Source of the DNA: Dehalococcoides mccartyi
GTDB taxonomy: Bacteria; Chloroflexota; Dehalococcoidia; UBA2979
Direction of reading: 5' to 3'
NCBI GenBank assembly: GCA_945865925.1
Contig: CAMBFG010000002.1
Coordinates: forward strand, 138,421-202,420
Length of the DNA: 64,000 bases
Below the pieces are notes generated by a model that searched no databases, was not told where the DNA came from, and saw only the letters and a program-made list of their open reading frames with translations. The position numbers were made by a program, and so were the translations under genes. Positions 62,223 through 64,000 of this stretch are shown here, in pieces; position 1 is the stretch's first letter; each line of letters opens with the position of its first letter.

Positions 62223-63341
62223 TTACCCGCGATCCCCGTTCGCGAGGCTCGGGAGCAGGCGGGCTGCACCCGTAGGAGATGAGATCACCACCGACGCCGT
62301 GGTGGCGAACCGAAGCGCGTCAAGCGTGTATCCCCGCAGTCGGTCGATCAGTCCTGCGTGTTCGTACTCGCTGGGGATCACAACCCCGTCGAGCCCGAGG
62401 CGGTTCGACCACTCACCAAGGTCGCCGAAACCCACTCCGGTTGGCAGGATGGCGAACACGTTCCCATCCGCGGGGATTTGTTCCATGCGATCCGCCAGAT
62501 AGGGGCGACCAATGGCATTGCGGACGTAAGCAGCCTCAAGTGGGTGCCGGTCGTCCGACCGGGGATAGGGATCGACTAGGTATGAGGCCGAGGCGAGGTC
62601 GTAGAGGTAGAGGTCGCAGTTTGGGATGGGCCCCGCGCTCGTGATCGCGCCGAGCACTCGTGTCACGGCTGGGCGCTTGCCATCGTCGATCAGGAGACCC
62701 AGGCGGTGCGGTGCCATACCGGAGACGGCGTCTTGCAGCGATCCATCCCCAGAGGTTTGGCCAGAGATAGAACCGGGGCGGTTGGACGCGCGGACGACGT
62801 CAAGATGGCTCGTGATCGCGAGCACCACGCGAGGATCCTCTGACACGAAACCCACGAAGCGCTTGTCTGGGTGGGTAGCGCCGTACTGGCCCCACAGCGA
62901 GTCGTCCGAGACTTCCCATGCCATAAAGGCGACAGGCTCTGGAGTCCGGGCTACGAGATACCACTGGTTTTCGAGATTGCGCCGCCCCGGGGGCAGACTG
63001 AACCAGGTGATGGCACCGGACTGAGGGCTTTCCGGTTGGCCCTCCCCAAAGGCGTACACGGAAACACCTCGGCGCCCGATCTGGTTGTAGCGGTCGGTCT
63101 CTAGTTGGAACTTCTGTTGGTTCTGGAAGCCTACGTACACGGAGGAAGGGGCAGGGCGAGTCTTCCACCCGGCCTCGATCTCTCGGCTGATCCGCAGCAT
63201 CTCCCTCGCGTCGCAGAGGAAGGAGAAGCCCTGGATGGGGTCGCCGCCATTGCGCAATTGGCCCTGAAGTCGGTCCAAGAACGTTGCGATCCCGCTCGAG
63301 CCGATGGCTGCGGCCTCCGCTTCCGTCAACTTCCAGTCCAT
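62223..63341 (-). CDS. DICT sensory-domain protein
   Basis: 372 residues, ATG with AAGGAG six bases upstream. Residues ~35-170 match the DICT domain (VYVGFQNQQKFQLETDRYNQ, VSVYAFGEGQ, NQWYLVARTPEPVAFMAWEV, FVGFVSEDPRVV), which is found with GGDEF, histidine kinase and other signalling domains. The last ~170 residues resemble a universal-stress-protein-like alpha/beta module, ending VVIPSEYEHAGLIDRLRGYT. No membrane helix. It is transcribed divergently from heliorhodopsin, so it may relay a light signal; this is inference. Confidence 0.8.
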   Translation of the reverse strand: MDWKLTEAEAAAIGSSGIATFLDRLQGQLRNGGDPIQGFSFLCDAREMLRISREIEAGWKTRPAPSSVYVGFQNQQKFQLETDRYNQIGRRGVSVYAFGEGQPESPQSGAITWFSLPPGRRNLENQWYLVARTPEPVAFMAWEVSDDSLWGQYGATHPDKRFVGFVSEDPRVVLAITSHLDVVRASNRPGSISGQTSGDGSLQDAVSGMAPHRLGLLIDDGKRPAVTRVLGAITSAGPIPNCDLYLYDLASASYLVDPYPRSDDRHPLEAAYVRNAIGRPYLADRMEQIPADGNVFAILPTGVGFGDLGEWSNRLGLDGVVIPSEYEHAGLIDRLRGYTLDALRFATTASVVISSPTGAARLLPSLANGDRG

Positions 63342-63476: not shown

Positions 63477-63491
63477 GTCAACTATATTGAC
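63477..63491. promoter_or_regulatory. Palindrome GTCAA-CTATA-TTGAC in the heliorhodopsin upstream region
   Basis: Perfect 5-bp arms around CTATA. The right arm TTGAC also looks like a -35 element, so a bound dimer could control a promoter there. About 135 nt upstream of the heliorhodopsin ATG. Confidence 0.4.
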
Positions 63492-63626
63492 GAAGAAGTG
63501 ACCAGCTTTATCGTCTGAGAGCGGGAAACACTAGGCTTCCGCCTCTTAACCGGTCTGGCGCAGGGTGGGTTCGCGGCAGTTTCAAGATGTGTTTGGCCGC
63601 CCCCGGTCAATTTGGAGGAGAGTGAT

Positions 63627-64000
63627 ATGGCCGAACAGGGTCGCATCCGGCTGGTGAACATCGTCGCTGGCGCCGTCCACGCTGGGCAGGGGGTCGCCGT
63701 ACTTGCTCTGGCGAACGGGTTCTCGCTGCCCGTCACCGGAACGTTTATGGAGGGCCCCCCTGGCACCGCCCCGGCTGCGTCCGTGGTGCTGTTCAACTTC
63801 CCGTTCGCGTGGGGTGTGGCCGGGTTTCTCTTTCTTTCCTCCATTGCCCATTGGACCGTCGCCGCGCCGGGTGTCTATGCGTGGTACCTCGCGAATCTCG
63901 CACGCTCACGGAACTATGCGCGTTGGATCGAGTACTCCGTCAGTTCCACGCTGATGATGGTGCTGATCGCGCTGTTGACCGGGGTCAGTGACGGCGCAGC
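63627..64000 (+). CDS. Heliorhodopsin, 5' part (cut by window end)
   Basis: The first 124 residues from the ATG at 63627 (GGAGGAG six bases upstream). RLVNIVAGAVHAGQGVAVLA is helix A, LFNFPFAWGVAGFLFLSSIA with HWTVAAPGVYAWYL cover helix B, and SRNYARWIEYSVSSTLMMVL is helix C. His18, His75 and Glu102 correspond, with a constant shift of five, to the His23, His80 and Glu107 of the first-described heliorhodopsin; the Glu is the Schiff-base counterion. ALPVTxxF-like SLPVTGTF is also typical. The retinal Lys in helix G lies beyond the window. Heliorhodopsins are inverted-topology photoreceptors without shown pump activity. Confidence 0.95.
   Translation, partial: MAEQGRIRLVNIVAGAVHAGQGVAVLALANGFSLPVTGTFMEGPPGTAPAASVVLFNFPFAWGVAGFLFLSSIAHWTVAAPGVYAWYLANLARSRNYARWIEYSVSSTLMMVLIALLTGVSDGA

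Follow-up and report, generated by a model that had tools for sequence, protein, structure and literature searches.

When would a heliorhodopsin (HeR) be made, and together with which other genes? The question is raised by a stretch of 64,000 nucleotides (hereafter the window; G000:C2:138421-202420 of the contig) from a Dehalococcoidia-like member of Chloroflexota, which ends within a HeR gene. We approached it through the intactness of the gene, its surroundings, its promoter and the recurrence of its neighbours at other HeR loci.

A complete heliorhodopsin gene

The HeR gene starts with the ATG at 63627 on the forward strand, behind a ribosome binding site GGAGGAG (63614..63620, +, direct reading), and its first 124 codons (63627..64000, +) stay open to the window end, as the sequence-only reading had described. 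On the extended contig the gene (G000:C2:202047-202799, +) is complete at 250 aa, with no premature stop beyond the window. The visible 124 residues match PF18761 (8e-35), pass the NCBIfam HeR cut-off and align with solved heliorhodopsins (~1e-27) at a constant offset of +5, which equates H18 with H23, H75 with H80 and E102 with E107. Full-length searches place the protein inside the heliorhodopsins (PF18761: E=9e-91, 303.9 bits against a cut-off of 26.7, model positions 2-242 of 242), and it aligns along its length with the 48C12 heliorhodopsin from the PDB (3e-71). Pfam, NCBIfam and PDB alignments therefore agree on the identity first proposed from the letters. The retinal lysine of helix G, sought by extending the contig, is K234 (K241 of 48C12), the sole Lys of the protein, in an SxxxK motif that reads SLTAK. 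The dN/dS ratio of 0.07-0.10 against two sister species indicates a gene under constraint, i.e. strong purifying selection, and a genome search revealed no second heliorhodopsin copy. The gene is a complete, ordinary heliorhodopsin, for which the inverted membrane orientation (N terminus inside) can be inferred by homology to the solved structures.

All three residues that had been called diagnostic (H18, H75 and E102) are indeed present, but the His pair is not strictly so, as Leu/Leu replaces His23 and His80 in 10 of the 85 heliorhodopsins compared (L045, L057, L061, L062, L066, L069, L071, L072, L081 and L101), both positions changing together. Glu107, Arg104, Ser237 and Lys241 are invariant among the 85, in the rows covering those positions. 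With 48C12 (PDB 6SU3, 6UH3) the protein shares His23, His80, Glu107, Ser237 and Lys241, while Trp163 of 48C12 is replaced by Ile158 and both Gln148 and Gln213 by Met (spectral tuning sites from PMC7807009, W163 from PMC10444878); these substitutions suggest that the absorption may be shifted.

The closest HeR copies (91%) come from the Chloroflexi MAG VGPD01000016 (same contig as G004) and from a MAG labelled 'Acidobacteria', which has almost the same locus as VGPD01000016; the next closest belong to Dehalococcoidia and Chloroflexi MAGs. Chloroflexota is a known heliorhodopsin phylum, which Bulzu et al. grouped with the monoderms in their survey (PMC8612252), so the presence of HeR is not surprising, and the value attached to this copy on the ground that the family is mainly monoderm is weak. 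We also considered whether HeR might be unusual for its phylum and rejected the idea, since HeR is widespread in Chloroflexota.

Family searches with positive controls found neither a phytoene/squalene synthase nor an RPE65-type carotenoid oxygenase in the 92%-complete genome. The Blh/Brp search came back empty for this genome, but equally for the controls and 60 relatives, and therefore does not establish absence. Given the missing synthase and oxygenase, retinal is probably imported, and HeR would take its chromophore from outside.

Gene neighborhood and a predicted cobalamin photoreceptor

The neighborhood had been described as clean, which is wrong: HeR sits in a light-response locus comprising a DICT-domain gene, a photolyase operon and a CarH/LitR-type photoreceptor. 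The DICT-domain gene (62223..63341, -; 372 aa; PF10069 1.6e-06 over residues 44-134) is divergent from HeR, with which it likely shares an intergenic operator, and it is kept in both sister genomes, with the orientation flipped in one. Directly downstream of HeR, on the same strand and beyond the window, lies a gene for a 119-aa protein (L002:2839-3198), conserved immediately after HeR in three species; no family was found for it in Pfam, nor in PHROGs for the copy of the window species. The dS of the 119-aa protein is 0.22 vs 0.36-0.64 for its neighbours. Structure predictions were of low confidence for both the 119-aa protein (pLDDT 52) and the DICT protein (pLDDT 39).

An MPAB/Lcp-type oxygenase gene follows on the same strand, and after it, still inside the cluster, an IS3-like integrase remnant (L002:4182-5300). 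Past the remnant, an operon on the opposite strand encodes a class I-like photolyase (best match: E. coli photolyase 1DNP), a second MPAB, DUF1365, FAD amine-oxidase-like, SDR, DUF2177, FAS1-like and SRPBCC-like proteins and a DUF1731 epimerase. A serine recombinase gene is found beside the cluster (L002:15864-17051). The locus seems to have been rearranged around the insertion-sequence remnant, and the remnant or the recombinase is a possible cause of the changed gene order in the window species.

Divergent from the photolyase operon is a gene for a regulator with MerR, B12-binding_2 and B12-binding domains, all three above the Pfam cut-off (G000:C2:214405-215322; L002:14406-15323). In the window species it lies ~12 kb beyond HeR, in a separate transcription unit. 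The protein matches Thermus CarH (2.5e-28) and keeps W131, E141 and H142 of the GxxW-x9-EH motif, the axial H177 and the GxxxP motif (GRRWERSDITVAGEH, ERHDLG and GADVP, respectively); in the CarH alignment the Gly of the GxxH signature is replaced by Asp (DERH instead of GERH). The adenosylcobalamin-binding motifs (Trp, Glu-His, axial His) were taken from PMC8156234 and PMC11796333. We predict that this neighbour is a cobalamin photoreceptor-repressor of the CarH/LitR type.

The arrangement is tighter in the sister species, where G004 (L102) carries HeR, the 119-aa protein, MPAB, MerR-B12 and photolyase genes in this order on one strand. Gene order in L014 is identical; an inversion there takes in the DICT gene and its promoter region (L014:130-1590 vs L102:7637-9000) and is either genuine or an assembly error. 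Of five genomes searched in the genus, two carry both HeR and the regulator and the other three carry neither; across the family the regulator occurs in 8 of 8 HeR genomes vs 7 of the 28 that lack HeR (Fisher p = 2e-4, kinship ignored).

A promoter motif shared with photoreceptor genes

The HeR/DICT intergenic region contains a putative operator/-35 element, TTGACGAAGAAGTGAC (63487..63502, +), common to the cobalamin-photoreceptor promoters of relatives. By direct reading, a hexamer TATCGT with weak consensus, 16 bp after TTGACG, may serve as the -10 element (63509..63514, +). MerR-B12 promoters in five relatives have TTGACGAAGA-type sites in common, with a TAT-like hexamer ~17 bp further. A PSSM trained on the MerR-B12 promoters of relatives, with the own-genome regulator and every HeR promoter excluded, gave its best score among ~128,000 window positions in the HeR/DICT intergenic region (34.9 bits, z=7.5; next 5.7 bits, z=4.4). 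The same PSSM ranks this region first in L102 and L014, the site in L014 having moved with the inverted DICT gene, so that in this MAG it faces the FAS1 gene and is directed away from HeR.

With up to one mismatch allowed, a search of the 2.3-Mb genome for the core TTGACGAAGAWNYGAC gave a single site, at window positions 63487-63502. Exact matches in 60 genomes number five, namely the HeR promoter itself, the HeR and MerR-B12 promoters of G004, the MerR-B12 promoter of G015 and one site in G054; since the core pattern was read from these same sites the count is descriptive, and the PSSM is the independent test. The G054 copy is located at G054:C6:167569-167584 (L116), in a distant relative.

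Two TnGAC units, the second one weak in the window, are spaced 11 bp apart over the -35 region. The CarH operator consists of 11-bp direct repeats with the consensus nAnnTnnACAn over the promoter (PMC8156234); the HeR site matches this consensus partially, and two repeats keep the 11-bp period. A search of the window region for an operator in the form of an inverted repeat returned nothing. The shared motif suggests when HeR may be made.

Recurrence of the linkage and known systems

A cobalamin-photoreceptor regulator was identified within ~12.5 kb of HeR in 7 of 85 distinct HeR loci. All seven are Chloroflexota by gene content (one MAG being labelled Acidobacteria) and make up 7 of ~26 Chloroflexota HeR loci, an approximate denominator counted by record title; a rough chance expectation, assuming one such gene per genome, is ~0.3 linked loci. 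On the HeR tree they fall in four places separated by well-supported branches. All seven regulators (7/7) keep GxxW-x9-EH, and those of L039, L047 and L058 exhibit a C-terminal HTH_3 domain instead of MerR. A link common to all HeRs was considered and rejected, as HeR loci of other phyla are without it; for Actinomycetota, no cobalamin regulator was found near HeR in the loci examined. Two marine Chloroflexota have a GTP cyclohydrolase I gene placed between the cobalamin-binding HTH_3 regulator and HeR (L047:1-2613, L058:2601-10741), a position that hints at a pterin link.

LitR clusters place a gene for a MerR protein with a cobalamin photosensor near photolyase, DUF1365 and FAD oxidoreductase genes. 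The locus described here resembles the CarH/LitR regulons in this respect and in the site over the -35 region; it differs in that no phytoene synthase was found in the window genome, and HeR was not found as a target of such regulons in the literature searched. SAR202 Ca. Lucifugimonas marina (PMC10444878) likewise has a photolyase near HeR, and our analysis revealed a cobalamin-binding HTH_3 regulator and FAS1 in the same stretch. That regulator has a C-terminal HTH_3, the one of the window species an N-terminal MerR; the main text of PMC10444878 does not mention the SAR202 regulator. The HeR-photolyase operon of Trichococcus is photolyase-associated too, but its enzyme belongs to class II and not to the class I-like type, and the accessible part of PMC9769723 describes no cobalamin regulator.

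HeR beside photolyase, MerR-family, SDR and DUF2177 genes is already known (PMC11109279), and HeR beside a DICT gene was reported once (PMC8612252). The MerR-containing operons of PMC11109279 held no other of the genes grouped there, unlike L102, where MerR-B12 and photolyase occur together with HeR. We found no paper linking heliorhodopsin with CarH/LitR or cobalamin photoreception in a search that covered non-subscription literature, which leaves priority uncertain. The new element looks to be the place of HeR in an apparent cobalamin-photoreceptor regulon.

Alternative explanations

Could the linkage with the regulator be a by-product of a photolyase cluster in which HeR serves the photolyase directly, as in Trichococcus? 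TfHeR is reported to bind and enhance its own class II photolyase (PMC9769723); in G004 and L014 a photolyase gene forms part of the tandem array, and one lies near HeR in L039, L058, L084 and L088. The enzyme of this locus is class I-like, unlike the class II one shown to bind, and L047 has the cobalamin regulator beside HeR and no photolyase in the stretch examined. We regard direct help to photolyase as possible but doubtful; it is also compatible with regulation of HeR by the photoreceptor. A different objection assigns the shared motif, as a promoter element, to an alternative sigma factor or to another stress regulator (e.g. for oxidative stress); the photoreceptor itself would then not control HeR. 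The TTGACG...TAT-like spacing of the core does resemble a promoter, and the CarH repeat consensus is matched in part only. Yet the motif is almost confined to HeR/DICT and MerR-B12 promoters, while sigma factors usually have many sites, and TnGAC repeats spaced by 11 bp over the -35 region are the geometry described for CarH, which makes this explanation unlikely.

Two further possibilities concern the protein itself. The opsin might work without retinal in an organism unable to make the chromophore, as the missing phytoene/squalene synthase and carotenoid oxygenase families in the 92%-complete genome would allow, together with the empty Blh/Brp search, for what it is worth with no positive control. 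Against this, Lys234, Glu102 and the tested pocket residues are intact under strong purifying selection and retinal could be taken up from outside, so we consider a retinal-free role very unlikely. Even less probable is a light-driven proton transporter like the viral V2HeR3, a member of the same family that transports protons (PMC9448325): no ion pumping has been demonstrated for prokaryote heliorhodopsins (PMC8612252), and the HeR studied here is associated with regulators and photoprotection genes.

Proposed role

Based on the predicted regulator and the shared motif, HeR is probably a light-inducible member of a photoprotection regulon under a cobalamin photoreceptor of the CarH/LitR type, in which it would serve as a light receptor in the membrane. 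What we infer from this arrangement is that HeR is repressed in the dark and induced by light. In the dark, the cobalamin-bound repressor would cover the TTGACGAAGAA-type site that lies across the -35 region of the divergent HeR/DICT promoter, as well as the one in its own promoter. Light from UV to green would break the Co-C bond and release the repressor, whereupon HeR would be made together with photolyase and the membrane-lipid and redox genes of the cluster. HeR, which is predicted to bind retinal, would then be loaded with the probably external chromophore and report green light reversibly at the membrane. A nearby partner is speculative: HeR might act on a cytoplasmic protein encoded in its vicinity, such as the photolyase, the 119-aa protein or the DICT protein.

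With somewhat less confidence, the recurrence of the linkage suggests that in Chloroflexota cobalamin photoreceptor-repressors of two architectures (MerR-CBD and CBD-HTH_3) repeatedly took HeR into their regulons, where a one-shot B12 switch would control a reversible retinal sensor in a two-stage light response.

The function of heliorhodopsins is debated, and the motif together with the repeated linkage to B12 photoreceptors indicates when the gene should switch on. HeR would thereby be placed inside a defined, testable photoprotection regulon. A linkage of this kind between HeR and a regulator is also present in the genome of a SAR202 strain that is in culture and that light inhibits in its growth.
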